This document shows, piece by piece, positions 12,770-25,002 of a stretch of DNA of 33,363 bases. The notes below the pieces were generated by a model. It was not told where the DNA came from and did no database searches. It was given only the letters and a program-made list of their open reading frames with translations. Within the stretch, counting starts at the first letter, position 1, and the number at the start of each line of letters is the position of its first letter. Made by a program: the position numbers and the translations under genes. Source of the stretch: Actinomycetota bacterium (lineage in GTDB: Bacteria; Actinomycetota; Actinomycetes; Nanopelagicales; Nanopelagicaceae); NCBI GenBank assembly GCA_014377015.1, contig JACMQL010000003.1, positions 1 through 33,363 on the forward strand. The letters run 5' to 3'.

Positions 12770-12772
12770 AAC

Positions 12773-12934
12773 ATGACGGAGACATATAAGGGTGACGCTT
12801 ACTGCGTTAAGTGCAAAGAGAAGCGTGATTTTGAGGGAACCGTAAAGGTCTCAGACTCTGGTCGTCGCATGGCACAGGGCATCTGCTCGGTCTGCGGCAC
12901 CAAACTCAATCGCATCCTTGGTAAGGCGCAGTAA
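12773..12934 (+). CDS. DUF5679 small zinc-ribbon protein
   Basis: The 53-residue protein has two CxxC knuckles (Cys11/Cys14 and Cys38/Cys41), the pattern of a treble-clef or zinc-ribbon fold. It matches the short DUF5679 proteins common in actinobacteria. The GGAGG ribosome binding site and the position of the first knuckle support the ATG at 12773 rather than the longer frame from 12710. An intrinsic terminator follows 43 nt after the stop, so it is probably a single-gene transcript. Function is unknown; nucleic-acid or ribosome association would be typical of the fold but is not shown. Confidence 0.85.
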   Translation: MTETYKGDAYCVKCKEKRDFEGTVKVSDSGRRMAQGICSVCGTKLNRILGKAQ

Positions 12935-13021: not shown

Positions 13022-13129
13022 CACTCTCGCACGACATCAAGTTCACGCAGCGCTCGTTAAACGCATCGGGTTCCACACTCCGCTTATCCCGTAAGTTCTG
13101 CGCAAGCCAGAACGTTGAAAATTGCGCGC

Positions 13130-14308
13130 ATGACATCCCCTTTAACGCCTCAACTTACAACTCTTCAACATGCAACGCCGCAGCCAGACCCTTCCTCATT
13201 CACACCGCCATCCGCGGCGCCCGCAGGTGATCGCGTACGCCCGCGCCTAAAGCAAGGGGCCTTCGTCATTTCGCGCGCGCAATCAAGTTATGTCGGGCGC
13301 ATGGACTCTGGGATTGAAGTTTTCTCGCAAACCCGCGTCGCCCTCGCCTCACTTGAAGGCGTTCTTACCTGCGCGGAAATTGCGGATCTGCATAATCTTG
13401 CATCTTCGCAAGTTTTCGAGTTGATCTCAGTACTCGAGGATGCCCATCTACTGGACACCATGACTTCCAAGATCGCCGTCCACGCACGTTTTCATTCCGC
13501 AAACGCACATCGCGCGTCACATTCTTCTGACGACACCAATGACGGCGCATACCAGCAACTCCAGGCCAAACTTTCGCCCGAACTGAGTTTCACAACGTGG
13601 CTGCCACGGGTGCGCGATGGCGGCGTGCGCGCAATGGGAGAACGTCGCAACACGACCGTGGAAATTCATGGTGACTCACGCATTGCAGTTCTCATTTTCG
13701 GAATCCTGCTGGCCAGCGGAGTCTCATCAGCCCGTGTCATCAGCAAGGAGTCACGCACAATCACCGATACCGATCTTGCTGCCAACTTCCTGCGCACCAC
13801 CGATATCGGACTACCTATTCAGGATCGGCTGAAAGAATGCGTTCGTGACCTATCGCTCTTCCCAAGCGCCCCGGCCGGCACTGCTCAACTAGAAAATCGC
13901 ACAATTGCAGTCTGCGTCGGCCCCGTGCCTGCGGAAAAAGTTCAAGAGTGGCTGAGTCGAGGTATTGCACATCTTTTTGTAGACAATCCCGACGGAGCCT
14001 CCATCACAATCGGTCCGTTTGTCATTCCGGGGCAATCGCCCTGTCTTCGTTGCCTAGCACTCAAAAAAGATGAGTGTAACGAAGCGTGGAAGGACGTCTC
14101 CTGGCATCTCGCAACTGCTACGCCCAGAGAAGTTCCAGTAGCGGTCGCCCACCATGTTGCTGGATTAGCCGCATTAGAGATTCTTCGCTTCATCGATGAA
14201 GGCAAATCAACTCTTGTCGGGGCAAGTGATCGTATCGATTATCACAATCCGCGCGGAAGCGAGCGAAGCGTCTTCACTCGCCACCCGGCATGCGGATGTG
14301 CTTGGTAG
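13130..14308 (+). CDS. E1/ThiF-like (cyclodehydratase-type) protein without a RiPP cluster
   Basis: The protein resembles the actinobacterial family annotated as 'TOMM precursor leader peptide-binding' or ThiF-like, of which Rv3196 is the likely syntenic counterpart. The conserved part begins at RPRLKQGAFVISR, passes through a winged-helix-like segment (EVFSQTR to DAHLLD), and reaches an E1-like domain. It ends in a zinc site made by CLRC and the terminal HPACGCAW. The nucleotide-binding GxGxxG of true E1 enzymes is not evident; the aligned stretch reads HGDSRIAVLIFGILLASG. No YcaO, dehydrogenase or precursor peptide gene is present in the window, so RiPP synthesis is not supported. The start is uncertain: ATG 13130 is preferred over TTG 13115, and neither has a ribosome binding site. 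About 50 Pro/Thr-rich residues precede the domain. Confidence 0.75.
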   Translation: MTSPLTPQLTTLQHATPQPDPSSFTPPSAAPAGDRVRPRLKQGAFVISRAQSSYVGRMDSGIEVFSQTRVALASLEGVLTCAEIADLHNLASSQVFELISVLEDAHLLDTMTSKIAVHARFHSANAHRASHSSDDTNDGAYQQLQAKLSPELSFTTWLPRVRDGGVRAMGERRNTTVEIHGDSRIAVLIFGILLASGVSSARVISKESRTITDTDLAANFLRTTDIGLPIQDRLKECVRDLSLFPSAPAGTAQLENRTIAVCVGPVPAEKVQEWLSRGIAHLFVDNPDGASITIGPFVIPGQSPCLRCLALKKDECNEAWKDVSWHLATATPREVPVAVAHHVAGLAALEILRFIDEGKSTLVGASDRIDYHNPRGSERSVFTRHPACGCAW

Positions 14309-14344: not shown

Positions 14345-14707
14345 TCACGCTGCGGTAGATCGCTCCTCATCTTCGACCAGCGGAGTCAGACGAGGACGAC
14401 CAACGGTGCGCTTGCGCGCCACGACAACTCCATCTTCAAAGAGTTCTCCGCCCCAAACTCCGCACGGCTCTTCACGAGAGAGCGCAGCTGCAAGACATTG
14501 CACAGCAACTGGGCATTGCGCACAGAGTGACTTCGCAACTTCAATCTGCGCAACAACTTCAGAGAAAAAAAGTTCCGGGTCAGCGTTGTGGCAAGGCAGA
14601 GTAAACGCTGTCGGCGAACCGTACGCACCAGTAACAGCGTCGAGCCCGATCTTGGTGCCGGTGTTCGCCCAACCGGGTACCAATAATTCGCTAAATAGAA
14701 CAGTCAT
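14345..14707 (-). CDS. whiB7: WhiB7 family redox-sensing transcriptional activator of antibiotic resistance
   Basis: The 120-residue protein has the four Fe-S cysteines of Wbl proteins (Cys39, Cys62, Cys65 and Cys71). It also has the GVWGGELF turn (83-90) and a C-terminal AT-hook VGRPR (102-106), which together mark WhiB7 rather than other Wbl proteins. Location beside uvrD2 is the same as in M. tuberculosis (Rv3197A beside Rv3198c). WhiB7 binds the primary sigma factor and AT-rich DNA next to -35 elements, switching on efflux, ribosome-protection and modification genes. The ATG at 14707 follows AGGTGAGG and begins after the leader terminator; a frame running 50 codons further upstream crosses that terminator and is rejected. 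The residue before the turn is Cys82, where I recall Trp in mycobacterial WhiB7 (EPWGVWGGE). Confidence 0.92.
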   Translation of the reverse strand: MTVLFSELLVPGWANTGTKIGLDAVTGAYGSPTAFTLPCHNADPELFFSEVVAQIEVAKSLCAQCPVAVQCLAAALSREEPCGVWGGELFEDGVVVARKRTVGRPRLTPLVEDEERSTAA

Positions 14708-14747: not shown

Positions 14748-14790
14748 AAAAAGAAAAAGGGCCCGAATCCGATTTGGATTCGTGGCCCTT
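14748..14790 (-). terminator. Leader attenuator terminator upstream of whiB7
   Basis: On minus, AAGGGCCACGAATCC (14790-14776) pairs with GGATTCGGGCCCTT (14770-14757) to give 14 bp with one bulged A and a 5-nt loop. The run TTTCTTTTT follows (14756-14748). It lies 40 nt before the whiB7 ATG and after the leader ORF stop, where an attenuator should be. It cannot be the uvrD2 terminator alone, because it lies 275 nt beyond that gene and after a promoter. Confidence 0.88.
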
Positions 14791-14833
14791 GGGGTCCTAT
14801 GTCGGGTGCTAACCGATTGGGCTCCAAGTGGCC
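14784..14833 (-). promoter_or_regulatory. Predicted antiterminator pairing in the whiB7 leader
   Basis: GGCCACTTGG (14833-14824), inside codons near the end of the leader ORF, can pair with CCAAGGGCC (14792-14784), with one bulged A. The second segment includes the first seven bases of the terminator's left arm, so the two hairpins exclude each other. A ribosome reaching the leader stop codon (14811-14809) would cover the upstream strand and free the terminator. A ribosome stalled earlier would leave the antiterminator free to form. Confidence 0.6.
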
Positions 14834-14949
14834 ATTTCGCCAAATGCGGGATTCCAAGCTGTGCGCTTGGTCGCATGTGCGGCGGTAACGGTGTATGAAT
14901 AATTACGAGCAGACGAAATCGCTGCAAAATCATGCGTAAACAACTGCAT
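14809..14949 (-). CDS. whiB7 leader peptide (upstream ORF, 46 codons)
   Basis: An ORF of 46 codons plus TAG starts at ATG 14949 with GGAG 6 nt upstream (14959-14956). It ends 19 nt before the terminator's left arm. The encoded peptide begins MQLFTHDFAAISSARNY and ends GEMATWSPIG. Regulatory upstream ORFs precede whiB7/wblC genes in mycobacteria and Streptomyces, where inhibition of their translation relieves termination. I infer the same use here from position and from the antiterminator sequence lying at its end. It need not make a functional peptide. A competing minus-strand frame (14724-14981) crosses the terminator and has no ribosome binding site. Confidence 0.65.
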   Translation of the reverse strand: MQLFTHDFAAISSARNYSYTVTAAHATKRTAWNPAFGEMATWSPIG

Positions 14950-15000
14950 TTTGCGCTCCATTCGTGCTCACACACAATCACGGTGATCGAGTGGTGCTAA

Positions 15001-15030
15001 AGAGTAAAGCACAACCCCACTTTCGTGCAA
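15001..15030 (-). promoter_or_regulatory. Predicted whiB7 promoter
   Basis: On minus, TTGCAC (15030-15025), an 18-nt spacer and TACTCT (15006-15001) place a start near 14994, about 45 nt before the leader ORF. Immediately upstream of the -35 is AT-rich sequence (GAAATCAAT). WhiB7 autoregulation in mycobacteria uses an AT-rich patch a few bases upstream of the -35, so this is consistent with self-activation. Confidence 0.55.
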
Positions 15031-15064
15031 ATTGATTTCGGCAAATAAATACGGTGAAGTAAAA

Positions 15065-16780
15065 CTACTTCAATCCGATCTCACCGAGAAAACGGCTCGG
15101 ACGTGAGCGATAACTCATAACTAAGTTCCGTCGTGCGCGAGTGATGCCCACGTAAAACAATCTTCGCTCTTCGGCAACAGAATTTTCATTCGTGGGCAGC
15201 GTGCCTTCGCTTACGCCGATGAGAAATACGTGATCCCACTCCAATCCCTTAGCGGCGTGCAATGTCGCAAGGGTTGTTACTGGCATGACAGGAGGATTGT
15301 TCTGCTCTGCCCTCTCTTCTACCTCGCGCAAATAGCTGCGCAAACTCTTGGGAGTGAATGCAGCATCTTGATCAAGTTCATAAGCCAAATGAAGTAGAGC
15401 CGTGATTCCATCAGTTGTTGCGGACGTAATAAAAGGTTGAGCAAGAGATCTCAACTCATCGAGCCACGAAGTTCCTTGGTTTGGAATTACCGATGCCTGC
15501 CGCACACCTTTGAGGAAATCCCGGACATCGCTTCGCTCAAAGAATCGTTCGTTGTTGCGAACTTGATATGGCACTTGTGCAGACAAGCATTGGCTGGCGA
15601 TTGCACTGAGTTGGGCGTTGGTACGCGCAAGAACTGCAATATCTTGCGGGGCTACTCCTTGCGCGATCAACTTTCTGATCTCCCCAACGACGCCGACAAC
15701 TTCGGCGGCCTCATCTTTGTATTCGTTCACCACAGGCGGCTGACCATGCGCACTAACTGCAACGAGTTCCTGCCCCATCGAGCCACTACGCAACACACTG
15801 TTGGCAGTAAAGGTGATCTCCGGAGTCGAGCGATATCCAGTCGTCAATCGCACAACTTGAGCGTCCGGAAAGCGTCCCGAAAAAGTATTCAAAAAAGTCG
15901 GAGTTGCTCCGGCAAAGGAATAGATAGTTTGCGCGGGGTCTCCCACCACACAAATTTCCTGCCGGTTCCCCAACCATGCATTGATAAGACGTTGCTGGAG
16001 CGGAGATACGTCTTGATATTCATCCACTGTGAAAAAGCGATACTGATCCTGAACCTGCTCGCGCACTTCACGCACTTCCTCAATCATCGCCGTCGTGAGA
16101 AGAAGTACATCCTCAAAATCAATGGTGCGCTCTTGCCGCTTGAGACTCTCATACGCCTCATAGACCTGCGCAAGTTGTCCGGTGTTGATGCGAGCGCGCT
16201 CTGATCGTCCTTTGGATTCTTCTATGTAATCCTGCGGACCAATTTCAGAAACTTTCGCCCATTCGATTTCACTTGCAATATCTCTGAGCAAATCTCGTGA
16301 CGAGTTGCCAATTTGACCAACCAGGCTCGCACGAGAAATCGCTTCTTTCACATATGCAGTCTTCGTCGTCAGGAGATCAGGTGTGCGCCCGCCAAAGACA
16401 CCTGGCCAGAAGTAAATCAATTGTTTGAGCGCGGCAGAGTGAATAGTCCGTGCCGCAACCGTCGGTACACCGAGTGAACGCAATCTGGCGCGCATCTCGC
16501 CAGCAGCGCGGGCTGTGAAGGTGAGCGCTAGTACGCGCTGTGGATTCATCGTCCCGATAGCGGAGGCATATGCAATTCGATGCGTGATGGCTTTTGTTTT
16601 TCCAGTGCCAGCGCCCGCTATTACGCAGACGGGACCGCGCGTTGCTAACGCTACTTCGCGCTGATCTTCGTCGAGGGCGGCGAGAATTTCTTCAGCCCTG
16701 ACTTCGTTTATTGAACCAGCAGGAATCAAATTTGACGCGGCCTCTAAGTAATTGAGTCGACCGACAGTTTCATTCTCCAT
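15065..16780 (-). CDS. uvrD2: UvrD2-type superfamily 1 DNA helicase, short form without HRDC
   Basis: The 571-residue protein has the SF1A helicase motifs: Q-motif-like LDEDQREVA, Walker A GAGTGKT (about 57-63), DEYQDVSPLQQ, GDPAQTIYSFAG, TTGYRSTPEI, TLHAAKGLEWD and YVGITRARRNL. It unwinds DNA 3' to 5' with ATP. The place between nudC and whiB7 identifies it as the UvrD2 ortholog. Mycobacterial UvrD2 is about 700 residues and ends in an HRDC domain; this one stops about 20 residues after motif VI with no such domain. Its ATG overlaps the nudC stop by 11 nt, so the two are translationally coupled. The whiB7 promoter begins 34 nt beyond its stop codon. Confidence 0.93.
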   Translation of the reverse strand: MENETVGRLNYLEAASNLIPAGSINEVRAEEILAALDEDQREVALATRGPVCVIAGAGTGKTKAITHRIAYASAIGTMNPQRVLALTFTARAAGEMRARLRSLGVPTVAARTIHSAALKQLIYFWPGVFGGRTPDLLTTKTAYVKEAISRASLVGQIGNSSRDLLRDIASEIEWAKVSEIGPQDYIEESKGRSERARINTGQLAQVYEAYESLKRQERTIDFEDVLLLTTAMIEEVREVREQVQDQYRFFTVDEYQDVSPLQQRLINAWLGNRQEICVVGDPAQTIYSFAGATPTFLNTFSGRFPDAQVVRLTTGYRSTPEITFTANSVLRSGSMGQELVAVSAHGQPPVVNEYKDEAAEVVGVVGEIRKLIAQGVAPQDIAVLARTNAQLSAIASQCLSAQVPYQVRNNERFFERSDVRDFLKGVRQASVIPNQGTSWLDELRSLAQPFITSATTDGITALLHLAYELDQDAAFTPKSLRSYLREVEERAEQNNPPVMPVTTLATLHAAKGLEWDHVFLIGVSEGTLPTNENSVAEERRLFYVGITRARRNLVMSYRSRPSRFLGEIGLK

Positions 16781-17747: not shown

Positions 17748-18587
17748 ATGCGCATCACCTCTTGGAATCTCCTACACGGATTAGCCATGCCGCCTCGCGA
17801 ATCCGCCGCCACTACCGAGGAACTCGCGCAGTCGCTGGCTGTAAGTGTGAAAAAGCTTAATCCTGACGTCATAGGGGTTCAGGAAGTGGATTATTACCTC
17901 GCCCGCTCGGGGAACATCAACCAGGTCGCCAATGTGGCCGCCGCCCTCGGGGCACGTGATTGGGCTTTCGCGCCCTCCGTAATCGGCTCACCTGAAGCGG
18001 ACTGGATCGGAACAAACGCCGCGCATAAGCGCATCGTGACGAACAAGGATTCGCAGGCTGATCCGCAATTTCGCGCCGCTGCCGGATACGGGATCGGGAT
18101 GGTCTCCACGTTGCCCGTTAAAAGCTGGCACCGGGTCGAACTTCGACGATCGCCTGTCGGAGTCTTCATGACATTTCCGGTAAACGGGAAAATGACGAAG
18201 GTCTACGTGCAAGATCACCCGCGCTCGGCTCTCGCCTGCGTGCTTGAAAACGGGTGGATGATTATTAATACCCACCTCTCATTTGTGCCTGGTGTAAATA
18301 TTTTCCAGATCGCGAAAATTAAACGTTGGATCAAAAAGTTGCCAGTCAAGAACAAGCAGAAAATTCTGATCATGGGCGACATGAATCTTCCGTGGGATGG
18401 ATTGATCAAGGGCCTCAATTGGAATTCAGTAGCTAAGCAAAAAACCTATCCAAGTTGGAATCCAAAACTTCAACTCGATTACTTCTTGTCCCTAAAGGTT
18501 GCATCTGAGGATGTACAACATCAGATTCCGATCCATGACGGGATGAGCGATCACCTACCGTTGACAATCGATGTTGACGTCGATTGA
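17748..18587 (+). CDS. Endonuclease/exonuclease/phosphatase (EEP) family hydrolase
   Basis: The 279-residue protein has the EEP metal-site pattern: SWNLLHG (Asn7), VQEVD (Glu46), GDMNLP (Asp211 and Asn213) and SDHLPL (Asp268 and His269). No signal peptide is visible, so it is probably cytoplasmic. Family members act on DNA, phosphoinositides, sphingomyelin or nucleotides. Neighbouring repair genes make a nuclease or phosphodiesterase plausible but do not prove it. The 3' end overlaps the convergent adnB gene by 37 bp, so there is no room for a terminator between them. Confidence 0.85.
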   Translation: MRITSWNLLHGLAMPPRESAATTEELAQSLAVSVKKLNPDVIGVQEVDYYLARSGNINQVANVAAALGARDWAFAPSVIGSPEADWIGTNAAHKRIVTNKDSQADPQFRAAAGYGIGMVSTLPVKSWHRVELRRSPVGVFMTFPVNGKMTKVYVQDHPRSALACVLENGWMIINTHLSFVPGVNIFQIAKIKRWIKKLPVKNKQKILIMGDMNLPWDGLIKGLNWNSVAKQKTYPSWNPKLQLDYFLSLKVASEDVQHQIPIHDGMSDHLPLTIDVDVD

Positions 18588-21500
18588 TACTTTTCAATCA
18601 GCGCGACGATATCGGATTCGCTAAGTAAGTCTGCTGGTCGATCAGTCACGCCCGTCGGAACGTAATGGAATGCTGCACTCACATTTTCGACATCAACTTT
18701 GGCTAGCTTCGCCCATGCCAAGCGATACATCGCCAACTGAATAGCGGCAGCCTCCCCCAGCTTTTTGGAGCCAGTTTTCCAGTCGACGACTTCGTACTTG
18801 TCTTCCACCTTGTAAACAGCATCAATTCGACCGCGCACGAGTACGCCACCGATGACAGTTTCGAAGGGGACTTCAACTGCATGCGGAGTCTTTATCGAGA
18901 ACGAACTCTTGAGCCAGGCCCTCTTCAACTCTTCCAGAGTTTGGTCCTCCTCAAGCGGATCAACCGGATCCAAGTCTTCATCATCGAAGAGGGTTCCTTG
19001 CCCGAAATTCGACTCCACCCAAAGATGAAAAACAGTGCCCCGCCTTGAATATTCATCCTGCGGACGAGGCATGGGGCGGCGAATTGAAAGCGCCAACTCC
19101 GCCGGGTTCTCGCGCAAGGCAACAAGGGCAGAGACCGAAAGACGCGACGGAAGAATCACATCACGAGAAGTTTTGGCCTGATGAATTTCGTTGATGAGCG
19201 CTTGTGCATCTCTCATCCACGAACATTCCATTTCTCCTGGCGATTTCTCGCCTGCTTTATCATCGGTGGATGTAAGTGGGTGAGGCGTGGCTGAGCGCAC
19301 AAGTGCAACTGCTGCATCAAAGACAGCCCGCCGAGTACCGAGCGGGTCACGTGGCCAAAGTTGTGTATCCGGATCTGCTAACTGCGGATTTTCTGCTCCG
19401 TCCTCTGGAGGCGGCACTTCGCTGACGAGTACTCCTCCCCTACCAATGCGTTCGGCAACCATTGCTGCCACAATTTCATATATCGCACTAGGTTTTACAG
19501 GCTTGGTACCTTCGCGCCAACGCGATGTCGTACAAATTAAGTGCGTCTTTGCACGAGTCATAGCAACATAACCCAGTCGAATCTCTTCGGCGTATTTAAA
19601 TGCATCACACTCATCATCAAAGACTTCAAAAACTTTTTTAACTTCTGCATGACTTGTGCATTGCGAGATATCAATGCGTGGTAATTCAGCGCCGTCTCCG
19701 CGTAATTCAAAAGGAATGTGCTTCTCGTTAGTCAACCAATTATCTTTTTCGCGACCAGAACTCGGGAAAGTCCCCACTGAAAGACCTGGAATGGCCACAA
19801 CATCCCATTCGAGCCCTTTGGCCATATGAATGGTAAGAATGGATACCACGTCTCGGTTTATTTCAGGCGGGCCAGATTTGAGTCCGCCCTCTTGTTCTGC
19901 AGCAATATCCAACCACGTGAGGAAATCCGTGACACTCGCACCGCTGCGGGCAAATTTAGAAGCTTCATCGATGAACCTATCGAGATGGCGTCTGCCACTT
20001 TGTGATTGATCGCGAAGGAATACTTCTACGTCCAAGAAGAGATAGTTCTCGATTTCCATAATGAGATCGAGCATTGATCCGCCGGCTTTAGCCCGTAAAC
20101 GGCGCAAGTCAGCCGCAAAATGTGAGAGCCGCGTGAACCCAATTTCGGTAAAATTCGCTTGTTCTGCCTTAGCTATTTCATCAAGGGCATCGATCAGGCT
20201 TCCCGCGAATTGATCATCAGCATCCTCTTGGAGTGAATTGCCAGCAACTATTTTCGCGATCAACCCCTTGGATTCGGAATACGCATGCTGAGCCAAGGAC
20301 TTCGTATACCGCGAAAGGGCGGCAATATCGGCGGCGCCGATATTGAGACGCGGTCCAGTTAGTTGACGCATCAGTGCTGATCCCGCATCGGGATCAGTGA
20401 CGATTCGCATCATCGAAATAAGGTCCGCAACTTCGGCGACGTGGATCAACCCGCCTACACCGAGAACTTCATAAGGGATGTTAAACGCCCGCAAGGCTAA
20501 CTCGATTTCAGGAATTTGAGATCGCTTGCGAGTGAGAATTGCAAAGGTCTCCTGCGCGCGGTTTCCCTCGAGCGCGCGGTCGTCACGCACTGACCACAAT
20601 TTGCTTATATATTCGGCGACACCAATCGCCTCCGCTTCTTGAGTCTCGAAAATTCCACAGGCAAGTTCTCCATGGCCGGCCTTCGGTCCAGCTTGCAAGG
20701 GGGCCACAACGACCTTCCCGTTCTCACGAATCTGAGTTGAGATTTCGTTAGCTAAATCCAGAATGATGTGATCGTTGCGAAATGTCTGTGGCAATGAATA
20801 TTGCGCGGGTCCCACGTGATCTTCGATCTTAGGAAAATTCCCCGCGAAAGCACCGATGGTTCCAGCCGACGCGCCGCGCCAGGTATAGATCGCCTGACAA
20901 GGATCACCAACCGCCATTACGGGATGACCTTTTCCACCTGCTTGCCTACCGTGGCCGAAAAGGGCCGAAAGCATGCGAACTTGAGATTGCGAAGTGTCTT
21001 GATACTCATCTAACAGAACTACTTTGTACCGAGACCGTTCGAACTCGCCTATGTCAGCAAATTGTTCGGAGATTGTGGCCGCCAACGACATTTGATCGTC
21101 GAATGAAAGAGTTCCATCTCGACGTCGGCGGGCCAATAAATCAAAAACCATGGGAAGAATTGAATTTCGTTGGTTCAAGGCTCTATGAATACGTCGTACT
21201 ACATCATTGGAGAGCGGTCCAAGTGATTCAAGGTGTTCCAGAATAGGTTGGCTGACACGGCTGATTTCCTCTGCCGAAACCCCATGCTCAAGTACCAACC
21301 GCGAAAGTCCGATTACATCTTTAATCACAGTGCTCACCGCGCTATCGGAACGAAAATCTTCATCAGGCCAGTTATGCACCAATTCCGCGGTCATCTGCCA
21401 AAGGGCAACTTCGCCCATTGGCTCCTCCGCCGCGTCAACCCCATAACGAATTGCGTGCTCGCTGAGCAAGCGACCGGCGTATGAGTGATAGGTCATGATC

Positions 21501-21835
21501 GAGGTATCCAACCCGACGCGATCAGAAAGCAATTTTGTTTCATTCAATTGACGAAGCCGCTTCCGCACACGCAGACCAAGTTCGCCGGCAGCTTTGCGTG
21601 TGAAGGTAAGCCCGAGTATTTCGTCAGGACGCACTATCTCGTTCGCGACTAAGTACAGAACTCGTGCGCCCATAGTTTCAGTTTTGCCAGATCCCGCGCC
21701 GGCAATCACGACTGCTGGTTCGAGCGGTGCTTCGATGATAGCCATTTGCTCGGGCGAAGGCATGACATATTTATCGTCTTGTTTTAATAGGGCGAAGGAA
21801 ATTTCTGTCGCAGAATATTTAGGCAAGGTCGTCAT
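18551..21835 (-). CDS. adnB: AdnB-like helicase-nuclease subunit
   Basis: The roughly 1094-residue protein joins a UvrD-like motor to a C-terminal RecB-type nuclease. The motor has Walker A GAGSGKTET, DEYQDTSQSQ, GDPCQAIYTWRGA, TIHMAKGLEWD and GYVAMTRAKTHL. The nuclease has RGRIDAVYK, VDWKTGSK and a following Gln-x3-Tyr (QLAMYRLAW). AdnAB processes double-strand breaks in mycobacteria, with AdnB as the main motor. The start is set by the ATGA overlap with adnA (ATG 21835, TGA 21834-21832), a classic coupling of equimolar subunits. A frame 21 residues longer lies inside adnA and is rejected. The 3' end overlaps the convergent EEP gene by 37 bp. Confidence 0.92.
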   Translation of the reverse strand: MTTLPKYSATEISFALLKQDDKYVMPSPEQMAIIEAPLEPAVVIAGAGSGKTETMGARVLYLVANEIVRPDEILGLTFTRKAAGELGLRVRKRLRQLNETKLLSDRVGLDTSIMTYHSYAGRLLSEHAIRYGVDAAEEPMGEVALWQMTAELVHNWPDEDFRSDSAVSTVIKDVIGLSRLVLEHGVSAEEISRVSQPILEHLESLGPLSNDVVRRIHRALNQRNSILPMVFDLLARRRRDGTLSFDDQMSLAATISEQFADIGEFERSRYKVVLLDEYQDTSQSQVRMLSALFGHGRQAGGKGHPVMAVGDPCQAIYTWRGASAGTIGAFAGNFPKIEDHVGPAQYSLPQTFRNDHIILDLANEISTQIRENGKVVVAPLQAGPKAGHGELACGIFETQEAEAIGVAEYISKLWSVRDDRALEGNRAQETFAILTRKRSQIPEIELALRAFNIPYEVLGVGGLIHVAEVADLISMMRIVTDPDAGSALMRQLTGPRLNIGAADIAALSRYTKSLAQHAYSESKGLIAKIVAGNSLQEDADDQFAGSLIDALDEIAKAEQANFTEIGFTRLSHFAADLRRLRAKAGGSMLDLIMEIENYLFLDVEVFLRDQSQSGRRHLDRFIDEASKFARSGASVTDFLTWLDIAAEQEGGLKSGPPEINRDVVSILTIHMAKGLEWDVVAIPGLSVGTFPSSGREKDNWLTNEKHIPFELRGDGAELPRIDISQCTSHAEVKKVFEVFDDECDAFKYAEEIRLGYVAMTRAKTHLICTTSRWREGTKPVKPSAIYEIVAAMVAERIGRGGVLVSEVPPPEDGAENPQLADPDTQLWPRDPLGTRRAVFDAAVALVRSATPHPLTSTDDKAGEKSPGEMECSWMRDAQALINEIHQAKTSRDVILPSRLSVSALVALRENPAELALSIRRPMPRPQDEYSRRGTVFHLWVESNFGQGTLFDDEDLDPVDPLEEDQTLEELKRAWLKSSFSIKTPHAVEVPFETVIGGVLVRGRIDAVYKVEDKYEVVDWKTGSKKLGEAAAIQLAMYRLAWAKLAKVDVENVSAAFHYVPTGVTDRPADLLSESDIVALIEKYQSTSTSIVNGR

Positions 21836-24800
21836 CCGATCACCGTCTGTCCATCGCTTTGAATCGGGCAGGAAGAACGCACTGCGCAATGTGTGCAAAG
21901 TTTATTAATTGTGGCAAAGAAAGTACCACTCCCCATGCCTTCGGCGATCTCGTTTATTTCCTTACGTACAGACTCGACATCTACAGGCGGTTGCGATCGC
22001 TTGGTCGCGTCTTTGGATGACGTTCCCAAAAATACCAACTCCGCACCAGCCGATGTTGTACTCGGATGCAAGTAAGAAAAGCCCCCTTCAATTATTCCAA
22101 GTTGATACGCCTGCATTTGCTTATTTTCTGCGGCATCTGGAATTGATGTCGCCGTGCCGCCAGTTTTAAAGTCAATAACGTAAAGTCCGCCATCTGCAGT
22201 GACTTCAAGGCGATCAACATTTCCACTTATGCGCGCACGTCCAACTACGACTTCAAATTTCTTTTCCACTCCAACAATTGTGTTCTGAGAACTCTGGTGG
22301 TACTTAACGAACTTCCTAATCATCTCAATGGCCCGAGTGAGTTGCTTATTCCTTACCCACCCAGAGTTAGGGTCGATAAGATTCCAAGAACTTTTCAGTT
22401 TTTCAATGAGGGATTCTTCACTCAGGGATGAGTCTTGCTCCATCATGGCTGCGAAAGCATGAATGGCCGACCCCAATACTTGTGCCGTGCTGTCGCCGTC
22501 AGTGCCACCGTTTCTTTCTAAAAACCACTTGAGACCGCACTCACTGAAACTTTCGCTACTGCTCGGTGAGACTAAGACGAGCGCGCCAGGGGCAACGATG
22601 GGAGCATCCGAACTTATCGGAAGAACTCCGTACCAATTATCAGTGTCTGCGACTGCAACTCCTTCAATTGCCAATCTGGCAAGCAACGCGGCTGAAAGTT
22701 CTGCGCGTTCGCCAGCGAGTTCATTTCGCAAAGTCGCAACCAAAGCGTTTGTTGTCAGAGGGCGCGGGACTTCTGTTAACAATTCTCCTCGTGATTTCTC
22801 CCCGAGTACGAACTCCACGACCTCTTCAAAATAGATGGATGGTTCTTCGTCCTCCCTTCGAATACTAGTTACTATCAATTGAGATTTGGCGCGTGTGGCG
22901 GCAACGTAGATCAATCGACGTTCATCATTGGCGAGTCCATTGGCAGCAAATACATCGAGTTGGGCGTGCTCGACAATCCCATGGCGCAACCGCTCAACTA
23001 GGCGTTCACTGCCTAAGAGCGACCCACGTTGGCGCAAATTCGGCCACGTCCCTTCTTGCAGCCCAGCGATGGCAACCATCTCCCATTCGCGCCCTTTGGC
23101 CGAATGCACAGTCACAATTTCGACGACATCTGGTCTTTGTCCTTTGGCGGTGATGACATCGCCCGCAATATTCTCTTGCGTTATCTGTCGTATAAAACTT
23201 TCCGGCCCGGAATAGGGAAAACGATCTGCGAAGCGACGGGCGGATTCAAAAAGTTGCATAATCGCATCCAGATCGCGATCGGCAACTGCGCCTCTCGCAC
23301 CACCGCGCAGCGCTTGACGACGCCAACTTTCACTAAGTTTTTCTCCGTCACTAGTGACTGCATTGCTCCAGATTTCCCAGAGAAGATCCTCACCTTGCGC
23401 ATTCTTGCGGCGCAGAACTTTTCTGGCACGAGCCAGCAGATCATGAATTCGCAAAAGCGAATCCGCTCCTTCTATCGCCACATCACCTGACTTCACTGCC
23501 TCAATCAGAAGTTGCGCCCCCGTATGCAGGTTGCCTTCCTCACGTGACATCAGCAAAGCACGCCGGATTCTTCGCAAAGAAACCGCGTCCGCGCCTCCGA
23601 ATTCGCTTAAGACAAGGGTCTCGCACATCTGCGCAGTAAGTGACTCCTCGTGCAACGCCACCTTAGCCATCAGAATTAATGGGGCAATCGCTGGGTTACT
23701 CGAGAGCACTTCCATTTCCGTTGCAACGGGAATTCCTGCCTGCCCAAAAGCACGACGAAGTGCTGTTGCAACTGCTCCGGGTGCGCGAAGAATTACTGCC
23801 ATTTGCGACCACGGTACGCCTTCGATCAGGTGCGCGCGTCGGAACTGATAAGCGATGAAATGAGCCTCTTCGCTCTGCGTGCGCAAGCATGCAATCAGGG
23901 GAGGCTTATGAGCCTCCGATACTTCTACTGCACACCTTTGAGCTCGCGCATACTTCTCGTTGGAGAACTGAGACGCCAAGGATGTGGCAATCGAGAAGAT
24001 CTCTCGGCTACTTCGAAAATTATCTAAAAGAGTTATTTCTTTTCCTTTTGCAAGGTAAAACTCAAGCTCATCAGATAATTTATCCGGGTCGGCTCCGCGG
24101 AATCGCCCGACAGCACTAGCTTCGTCGGCACAGAGTAGGACATCGGACCCGACGAGTTCACGCAACAATAACCTTTGCGCAGGATCGGATTCCTGAAACT
24201 CGTCAACCATGATCGTGGTGAAACGCATACGCAGTTGATCTGCAAGTTCGGAATTATTTTGCAAGTGGTAATAAGCCTCAATGACAATCTGGCTTGGATC
24301 TACTTTTCGTTTTGCGTCCCCTGCGGAAATCTCCTGTATTGAAAGAATCTCAAGATACTGCTCCCAGAAATGCGCGCAGGATTGCCAATATTTCTCGTCT
24401 TGTTCAGCCCCCAACTTAGCCAGTTCCTTCGGAGAAATATCTCGCTCGGCAGCGCGCAGAATTAGATCGCGAAGCTCGCGGGCAAAACCGCGCGTAGCAA
24501 TCGCAGGCGCTTTCGGATCATTTAGATCGGCGTGCCAATATGTCGCACCGTTTTCGATATCACCTTGCAGTAATTCCCGAATGATCATGTCTTGCTCTGG
24601 TCCCGACATCAGAATCGGTTCTGGTTCATCAGGATTCTCACGCATCTTCAGGATCGAGAATGCGAGTGAATGGAAAGTCCGAGCAATCGGCTCGTTCATA
24701 ATTCCTGGCGAGCCGGCCGCGGCGCGCAACGCGATTTCATCCCGCAACTCAGCGGCGCGCTCTCGACCGTATGTAAGTATCAAAATCGAATTAGGATCTT

Positions 24801-25002
24801 GACCTTCCGCAATCCGCGCGAGCGCGCTTTCGATCAGCACGGTTGTCTTACCCGTGCCTGGCGCACCTCGAACTATGAGCGGGGTGCCGCGATGGGCGAT
24901 TGCTTCTTGTTGCTCAGGTGAGAATTCATACTGCGGTGGCACGATTGTGCGTCGAACCAATCCCGTGATGAAGGATCCAGGCGCAGAGTTCATGGCTCCC
25001 AT
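21832..25002 (-). CDS. adnA: AdnA-like helicase-nuclease subunit with probable Fe-S cluster
   Basis: The 1056-residue protein is the partner of AdnB. The motor shows Walker A GAPGTGKT (46-53), VDEFQESDPAQ, TVHSAKGREWE and YVAATRAKSQL. The nuclease domain shows GNVDRLEV, VIDFKTGG and QMQAYQLG. A Cys in FSECGLKWF together with CTHCAVRSSC could hold the 4Fe-4S staple found in AddB-type nucleases. AdnB's C-terminus lacks this set. ATG 25002 was chosen; ATG 24993 is possible. It lies 50 nt downstream of argG on the same strand and may be co-transcribed with it, though no functional link is evident. Position next to adnB, uvrD2 and nudC matches Rv3202c. Confidence 0.92.
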   Translation of the reverse strand: MGAMNSAPGSFITGLVRRTIVPPQYEFSPEQQEAIAHRGTPLIVRGAPGTGKTTVLIESALARIAEGQDPNSILILTYGRERAAELRDEIALRAAAGSPGIMNEPIARTFHSLAFSILKMRENPDEPEPILMSGPEQDMIIRELLQGDIENGATYWHADLNDPKAPAIATRGFARELRDLILRAAERDISPKELAKLGAEQDEKYWQSCAHFWEQYLEILSIQEISAGDAKRKVDPSQIVIEAYYHLQNNSELADQLRMRFTTIMVDEFQESDPAQRLLLRELVGSDVLLCADEASAVGRFRGADPDKLSDELEFYLAKGKEITLLDNFRSSREIFSIATSLASQFSNEKYARAQRCAVEVSEAHKPPLIACLRTQSEEAHFIAYQFRRAHLIEGVPWSQMAVILRAPGAVATALRRAFGQAGIPVATEMEVLSSNPAIAPLILMAKVALHEESLTAQMCETLVLSEFGGADAVSLRRIRRALLMSREEGNLHTGAQLLIEAVKSGDVAIEGADSLLRIHDLLARARKVLRRKNAQGEDLLWEIWSNAVTSDGEKLSESWRRQALRGGARGAVADRDLDAIMQLFESARRFADRFPYSGPESFIRQITQENIAGDVITAKGQRPDVVEIVTVHSAKGREWEMVAIAGLQEGTWPNLRQRGSLLGSERLVERLRHGIVEHAQLDVFAANGLANDERRLIYVAATRAKSQLIVTSIRREDEEPSIYFEEVVEFVLGEKSRGELLTEVPRPLTTNALVATLRNELAGERAELSAALLARLAIEGVAVADTDNWYGVLPISSDAPIVAPGALVLVSPSSSESFSECGLKWFLERNGGTDGDSTAQVLGSAIHAFAAMMEQDSSLSEESLIEKLKSSWNLIDPNSGWVRNKQLTRAIEMIRKFVKYHQSSQNTIVGVEKKFEVVVGRARISGNVDRLEVTADGGLYVIDFKTGGTATSIPDAAENKQMQAYQLGIIEGGFSYLHPSTTSAGAELVFLGTSSKDATKRSQPPVDVESVRKEINEIAEGMGSGTFFATINKLCTHCAVRSSCPIQSDGQTVIG

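Follow-up and report, generated by a model that had tools for sequence, protein, structure and literature searches.

The whiB7/wblC genes of mycobacteria and Streptomyces are reportedly controlled by an attenuator built around an upstream open reading frame (uORF), which citing papers trace to Burian & Thompson 2018 and Lee, Lee & Roe 2022. As described in the actinobacterial literature, this device consists of a leader uORF, a terminator, and an antiterminator built from both, and it is induced by antibiotics as well as by amino-acid shortage (PMC13236596, PMC4128351, PMC11550727, PMC13393426, PMC10727445). The initial annotation of the locus studied here had stated that such attenuation is already known, and three of these papers indeed contain the published mechanism (PMC11550727, PMC13393426, PMC10727445). 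Comparable switches are described for the leaders of resistance genes, ABC-F genes among them (vmlR, lmrC, tiaA, rli53-lmo0919), in which a ribosome stalled by a drug on a short leader ORF shifts the RNA from terminator to antiterminator (PMC12421871, PMC11550727), and for the ilvB1 attenuator of M. tuberculosis and other amino-acid leaders, in which a ribosome that has reached the stop codon covers up the antiterminator (PMC13236596). A 2025 paper states that antibiotic-induced stalling inside the whiB7 uORF has not yet been tested (PMC12121999).

The locus described here shares with the whiB7/wblC attenuator of mycobacteria and Streptomyces a uORF with a Shine-Dalgarno site, a later terminator, whiB7 downstream, an AT-rich element at the −35 box, and an antiterminator formed from overlapping uORF and terminator sequences. 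It differs in its family-specific sequence and in a leader peptide (46-64 aa within the genus) from which Glu, Gln, Asp and Leu are nearly absent, and the T-tract of our locus is longer than in most high-GC relatives in the comparison. The responses to a drug-stalled ribosome and to a ribosome at the stop codon are both predicted here as well. Unlike vmlR, lmrC, tiaA and rli53-lmo0919, however, the gene controlled is a global regulator and the leader ORF is long; the predicted switch point lies near the uORF 3' end, whereas in tiaA it lies at the start codon. Unlike ilvB1 and amino-acid leaders, there is no run of end-product codons and no amino-acid biosynthesis operon; in fact, the peptide is a mixture of Ala, Thr, Ser and aromatic residues and the downstream gene is whiB7, which sets the leader outside the trp/his/ilv type. 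We read the whiB7 leader as a ribosome-mediated transcription attenuator of the whiB7/wblC kind, with a probability of about 90%. The mechanism is known; what is added is its occurrence in Nanopelagicaceae, and among the papers listed by the literature searches there was no whiB7 leader report for Nanopelagicales or freshwater actinobacteria.

The stretch analysed, hereafter the window, comprises 33,363 nt within a 1.72 Mb, 50-contig genome of the Nanopelagicaceae (acI freshwater lineage), with a GC content of 51-54%. In mycobacteria, the genes for an NAD(+) diphosphatase and a UvrD-family helicase precede whiB7 in that order, and the same order is found in the window. The helicase, which matched no NCBIfam model at cut-off, we take to be uvrD2 from its position and from prior knowledge. 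The gap between it and whiB7, first given as 358 nt, measures 357 nt (uvrD2 stop 15065, whiB7 ATG 14707). Hallmarks of WhiB7 are a Wbl domain, a GVWGG motif and an AT-hook. The product encoded in the window aligns with PDB entry 7kif over GVWGG and GRPR (AT-hook), the next best match being WhiB1 at E 1.1e-9, and the gene downstream of the leader is, judged by these alignments, a WhiB7 orthologue. Rfam searches of the whole window at gathering thresholds returned tRNA only. The features are collected in Table 1.

Table 1. Features of the whiB7 leader region and its flanking genes, in window coordinates.
Feature	Position	Strand	Basis
UvrD-family helicase, upstream, in uvrD2 position	15065..16780	-	ORF; Pfam UvrD-helicase + UvrD_C
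AT-rich element directly upstream of −35, candidate WhiB7 site	15031..15038	-	sequence; family conservation
Promoter: −35 TTGCAC 15030-15025, 18-nt spacer, −10 TACTCT 15006-15001	15001..15030	-	family conservation
Leader ORF Shine-Dalgarno site GGAG	14956..14959	-	6 nt upstream of ATG 14949
Leader ORF, 46 aa; ATG 14949, stop 14811-14809	14809..14949	-	ORF; conservation; pN/pS
W-N-P-A-F codons at the decision boundary; Ala GCA 14847-14845 = codon −12	14842..14856	-	conservation; masking
Antiterminator left arm, within uORF end	14824..14834	-	fold; swap and synonymous-codon tests
Antiterminator apical stem-loop UCGG/CCGA, uORF stop 14811-14809 in loop	14802..14816	-	fold; pair counts
Antiterminator right arm, overlapping terminator left arm	14783..14792	-	fold; swap test; pair counts
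Intrinsic terminator stem-loop	14757..14790	-	fold; terminator scan
Terminator T-tract TTTTTCTTTTT	14748..14758	-	sequence
whiB7	14345..14707	-	Pfam Whib 61.7 bits; PDB WhiB7 7kif E 6.3e-26

Several neighbouring genes were recorded on the way. The convergent neighbour of whiB7 (13115-14308, plus strand) encodes a 397-aa protein without a Pfam match, which scores 35.7 bits against a cut-off of 36.9 with NCBIfam TIGR03882 (TOMM precursor leader peptide-binding protein), and a DUF5679 match covers a short stretch within a small ORF at 12770-12934 (plus strand). Near the uvrD2-like gene, positions 18551-25002 (minus strand) hold two adjoining, overlapping UvrD-type helicase-nucleases with PD-(D/E)XK domains, which resemble an AdnAB/AddAB-like pair.

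The promoter annotated in the gap is present with both of its boxes. A sigma-70 consensus scan of the window found none between uvrD2 and whiB7; since the −10 rule of that scan misfits a TANNNT box, we relied on family conservation instead. The combination of an AT-rich stretch, TTG and TANNNT, a pattern composed after the genus leaders had been inspected, is kept in 70 of the 77 family leaders with enough upstream DNA, against 1.8 expected from letter shuffles. In its own genome, the genus-derived promoter pattern has the whiB7 promoter as its sole match, a result that is uninformative on the regulon because a reversed control pattern matched three times. The AT-rich motif found by ChIP-seq of M. 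abscessus WhiB7 lies 3 bp upstream of the −35 box (PMC10727445). The element at the corresponding place here is kept in sequence across the family, which makes it a candidate for a WhiB7-dependent promoter, and WhiB7 would then probably boost its own transcription.

The leader ORF was claimed to carry its own ribosome binding site, and we find 46 codons preceded by GGAG; an alternative start at ATG 14961 would extend the peptide to 50 aa. Some in-frame start with a Shine-Dalgarno-like site is seen in 18 of the 19 genus leaders printed, with GAG only in two, and the W-N-P-A-F of the window reads W-Y-P-A-F in most genus relatives. The family pool combined 80 named loci, 29 from further family genomes, and the window, and was reduced to 88 leaders by de-duplication. 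An in-frame ORF with a related C-terminus occurs in 85 of these 88, a count that is descriptive and not a test because the recognition pattern was written from the same sequences. The other three are shortened to 131-253 nt by contig ends; model search recovers the full antiterminator in one of them (L092) and the remaining part in the other two. Between codons −30 and −10, pN/pS within the genus is 0.40 in frame versus 0.81 and 2.22 off frame, and in a second clade 0.41 in frame versus 1.15 off frame (+1). The YFATK clade says little on coding, since its in-frame value of 0.79 is hardly below the off-frame values of 0.82 and 1.05. Taken as substitution patterns, these data support a leader ORF under coding constraint and a leader that is probably translated.

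Downstream lies the strong intrinsic terminator with a T-run, initially described as 14 bp with one bulge. We count 12 pairs (GGGCC-A-CGAATCC / GGATTCG-GGCCC), or 13-14 with the A-U closing pairs, and one bulged A; the T-tract ends ~40 nt upstream of the whiB7 ATG. The folds of 14850-14748 (z = −2.99) and of 15000-14708 (z = −3.17) were each equalled in stability by 1 of 200 shuffles. The competing pairing of GGCCACTTGG (14833-14824) with CCAAGGGCC (14792-14784) is also present, exact save for one bulged A. Because this pairing and the terminator both use GGGCC, the two structures exclude each other as had been claimed, and the family and class comparisons support this. The antiterminator arms are as initially drawn, but the whole structure is larger than described and also includes a second stem around the stop codon.

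Eighty-four of 85 leaders could be anchored at the terminator (L024 was dropped), 73 of them distinct. The nascent RNA was folded over a span that starts with the final 30 nt of the uORF and stops where the terminator left arm ends. In its minimum-energy structure, the uORF end pairs with the terminator left arm over at least 6 pairs in 72 of the 73 distinct family leaders, and the inner stem is present in all 73; the uORF stop codon sits in or beside the apical loop. The mean energy across these leaders is −26.6 kcal/mol for the antiterminator versus −22.4 kcal/mol for the terminator alone; in the window itself the two are equal (−22.4 and −22.8 kcal/mol, respectively). In a group of leaders that includes L047, L048, L052 and L060, part of the terminator right arm is repeated by the uORF codons GGATTCGGC (or GGTTCG), which enables the antiterminator to absorb nearly all of the terminator left arm.

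Evidence of selection on this structure comes from exchanging its parts. Among 42 unique arm pairs, arms fold better with their own partner (mean −18.3) than with permuted partners (mean −16.4), a difference reached in 0 of 20,000 permutations, and in 4660 single arm swaps the own partner was better in 3520 and worse in 957. Similarly, synonymous replacement of the last leader codons gives a mean z of −2.77, and in 48 of the 73 leaders no more than 2 of 200 variants equalled the native sequence in stability; the window on its own gives a weak result (22 of 200). Both tests argue for selection on the predicted antiterminator.

Compensatory changes, which the initial annotation had suggested seeking in related leaders, give a more divided picture. 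For the named 17-pair structure in 45 representatives, covariation is 0.160 compared with 0.104 in shuffles that leave the relatedness of the sequences in place (0/500 as high), versions of the structure slid along the alignment score lower, and 40 cells are changed on both sides versus 17 in shuffles (0/500). Two of the five measures are weak, namely pairs with two-sided change (10 versus 7.0; 22/500) and further pair types (20 versus 18.8; 170/500). For the family alignment of these representatives (A2), built on primary sequence, RNAalifold moreover yields no consensus structure, probably because the arms shift register between clades; in the same alignment, the apical stem UCGG/CCGA shows two-sided change in 4 of its 5 pairs. 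On an 18-sequence same-genus alignment (A3), RNAalifold recovers the hairpin with almost no covariation: 94.4% of cells are paired, no pair is changed on both sides and shuffles are identical, so that covariation within the genus is uninformative, nearly everything being conserved. An earlier family alignment (A1) was discarded for a misplaced terminator right arm.

In silico, the predicted fold of nascent RNA depends on the position of the ribosome. We masked the RNA codon by codon with an assumed footprint spanning 12 nt upstream and 16 nt downstream of the first P-site base. In the window's nascent RNA, an A-site at codon −12 or earlier leaves 9-11 antiterminator pairs, which fall to 4.4 at codon −11, 3.3 at −10 and practically none from −9 on; the boundary consequently falls in the W-N-P-A-F codons. 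With the ribosome beyond this boundary, the full window RNA folds into the terminator with all 11 pairs. The mean of the 25 of 73 leaders run behaves alike, with 7.9 antiterminator pairs at −12 and 3.4 at −11; with the ribosome at the stop codon, 4.2 pairs return in the nascent RNA of these 25 leaders and none in the full RNA. The switch is seen only in nascent RNA. Full RNA favours the terminator throughout, and without a ribosome the full-length window RNA at equilibrium holds 10.3 terminator versus 3.1 antiterminator pairs. The attenuator interpretation of the initial annotation is supported by placement and comparison, with the limit that the terminator wins in full-length RNA at equilibrium. 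Given this preference, the antiterminator must form first, and, under assumed kinetics, read-through would rely on its forming before the terminator.

In the model that these data suggest, RNA polymerase would initiate at the conserved promoter with a ribosome trailing on the leader ORF. On full translation, the ribosome would cover the last leader codons and the stop codon and block the antiterminator hairpin; the terminator would then form and whiB7 would go untranscribed. Should ribosomes be stalled or scarce before about codon −12, as the presumed inducing signals (a drug or amino-acid shortage) may bring about, the nascent leader would fold the antiterminator first, sequester the terminator left arm, and let the polymerase continue into whiB7.

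What such a leader might sense is suggested by its composition. Across codons −40 to −10 of 66 distinct family sequences, which are related so that the counts are not independent, Ala, Ser and Thr together make up 45% (Ala 22.7%, Thr 12.2%, Ser 10.6%), alongside His 6.1%, Trp 3.2%, Tyr 6.6% and Phe 6.8%, with Glu and Gln at 0.1% each, Asp at 0.7% and Leu at 1.2%. The corresponding values in 14 window proteins are Ala 10.9, Thr 5.7, Ser 7.1, His 1.9, Trp 1.3, Tyr 2.3, Phe 3.4, Glu 6.5, Gln 3.3, Asp 5.4 and Leu 9.6%. The other frames of the same leader DNA often encode Leu and Gln (19.6% and 11.3% in frame +1), which places the avoidance of these two at the codon level; Glu (0.3 and 1.4% off frame) and Asp (1.1 and 2.0%) are scarce whichever frame is read. 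Non-family leaders are less extreme (Ala 17.8, Glu 2.7, Leu 6.3% in 29 peptides minus their last nine residues). Chloramphenicol stalls ribosomes after Ala, Ser and Thr according to one paper (PMC12121999), and an aromatic/Ala motif (W-x-P-A-F, F-Y-A-A-F-Y-A) coincides with or immediately precedes the codons at which stalling is predicted barely to free the antiterminator arm. We hypothesize that the composition bias is tied to drug context or amino-acid supply. From residue composition and motif placement together, we tentatively propose, while holding it rather doubtful, that the family leader peptide is a composition-tuned, broad-spectrum stall tape that would sense many ribosome drugs and certain amino-acid shortages and ignore the supply of Glu, Gln, Asp and Leu.

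The same composition bears on a reading in which the leader is an amino-acid attenuator that mainly senses charged tRNA, alanine foremost, with antibiotics secondary. Alanine fills 22.6% of codons −40 to −10 versus 10.9% in the 14 window proteins, with local maxima close to the switch point (codons −11, −14, −15 and −18), and mycobacterial and Streptomyces whiB7 are described as answering alanine or amino-acid starvation (PMC11550727, PMC10727445). However, the highest Ala peak, at codon −7, sits within the antiterminator arm, the positional peaks derive from related sequences, the peptide lacks the single prevailing residue of trp or his leaders (Thr, Ser, His and aromatics are elevated too), and whiB7 is a regulator, not a biosynthetic gene. 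We consider this reading possible at clearly less than even odds; it overlaps the drug-responsive attenuator and does not exclude it.

Other explanations fit the layout less well. A strong intrinsic terminator placed downstream of uvrD2 is what would be expected if the hairpin constitutively ended uvrD2 transcripts while whiB7 used another promoter and the leader ORF were incidental; yet a conserved promoter sits between uvrD2 and the hairpin, the ORF is under coding constraint, and its codon choice supports the antiterminator, so that we reject this explanation as very improbable. The scan that found no promoter downstream of the terminator counts for little here, since it also missed the upstream one. 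Translational control of the erm kind, with the ribosome-binding site of whiB7 masked by leader structure, is a common way for drug-sensing leader ORFs to act, and the long-leader fold does pair part of the region before whiB7. It is nevertheless rejected as exceedingly improbable, given a conserved hairpin that ends in a T-tract well before the whiB7 ATG and conserved competing arms that leave out the whiB7 Shine-Dalgarno site. We give the overlapping +1 frame (85 aa, 14981-14724) next to no chance of being the true leader ORF: stops are few in this frame among genus leaders (0.7%) and several relatives have long ORFs in it, but the ends of these ORFs are not conserved, off-frame pN/pS is 0.81, 1.15 and 0.82 versus 0.40, 0.41 and 0.79 in frame in the three clades, and the Shine-Dalgarno site, conserved start and conserved C-terminus all belong to the 46-aa frame. 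This candidate is likewise rejected, and a transcription attenuator of the whiB7/wblC kind stays our preferred reading.

That predicted attenuator appears to be kept throughout the family. Members that keep whiB7 with the hairpins gone were looked for and none was seen: a covariance model of the antiterminator, to which 39 of the 80 named family whiB7 loci contributed (many of the 41 outside it being close to members), matched at all 80, two of them shortened by contig ends. In its own 1.72 Mb genome the model has a single match. In a search of 246 genomes of the class, it matched all 22 family genomes, in every case directly ahead of the whiB7 match, and gave 8 weak matches in the 224 non-family genomes (best E 9.2e-4); in the four with a printed whiB7 position (G303, G397, G408, G423), these fall away from whiB7. 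This specificity marks the modelled antiterminator sequence as a family trait. In genus g2 of the family (L129, L138 and G030), the part of WhiB7 from its start to the cysteine domain is divergent or lengthened with the leader element kept, as known for G030 from the covariance-model match only. The best WhiB7 matches of the family genomes G008 (98% complete) and G013 (93%) are at the level of paralogues (~2e-10), and a few family members may have lost whiB7 or lack it in the assembly.

The layout extends beyond the family. WhiB7 matches at E ≤ 1e-12 are found in 209 of the 246 class genomes, and 50 further leader loci (L128-L178 without L164) were compared, 49 after L178 was dropped for want of a WhiB7 motif. 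The same layout is seen in 31 of the 49, namely 29 outside the family and two divergent family members (L129, L138), with several of the uORF choices uncertain; the distance from the uORF end to the end of a strong terminator is 42-59 nt (72 in one). Pairing between that uORF end and the terminator left arm is found in each of the 31, with a mean z against synonymous variants of −1.97 that is flattered by keeping the best-scoring candidate stop per leader. Of the 49, the main scan left 16 without a terminator and 2 without a uORF, and a stricter terminator scan found fewer terminators. When these 18 were inspected under looser criteria, 17 showed a comparable GC-rich hairpin (GGCCGCGG, CCACGGACC or similar), some with hardly any T-tract (L169), and L147 did not. 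The window peptide ends TWSPIG, like the TWSPPV of some other families; among the 29 non-family leaders, the endings TWSPPV and AWSPPV each occur twice and TWSHPV once, and the others vary. From the shared layout and related peptide ends, we infer that the attenuator device, and not whiB7 alone, was probably inherited by common descent across families.

In sum, an abundant freshwater family appears to keep a full ribosome-stall sensor before whiB7 in its small genomes. The known mechanism is unchanged, and the composition bias and precise switch point merit specialist attention. The analysis supplies exact, testable stall positions, and it is the composition of the peptide that makes these predictions testable. 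The divergent leaders of the family constitute a natural data set on what makes a leader peptide a general sensor.
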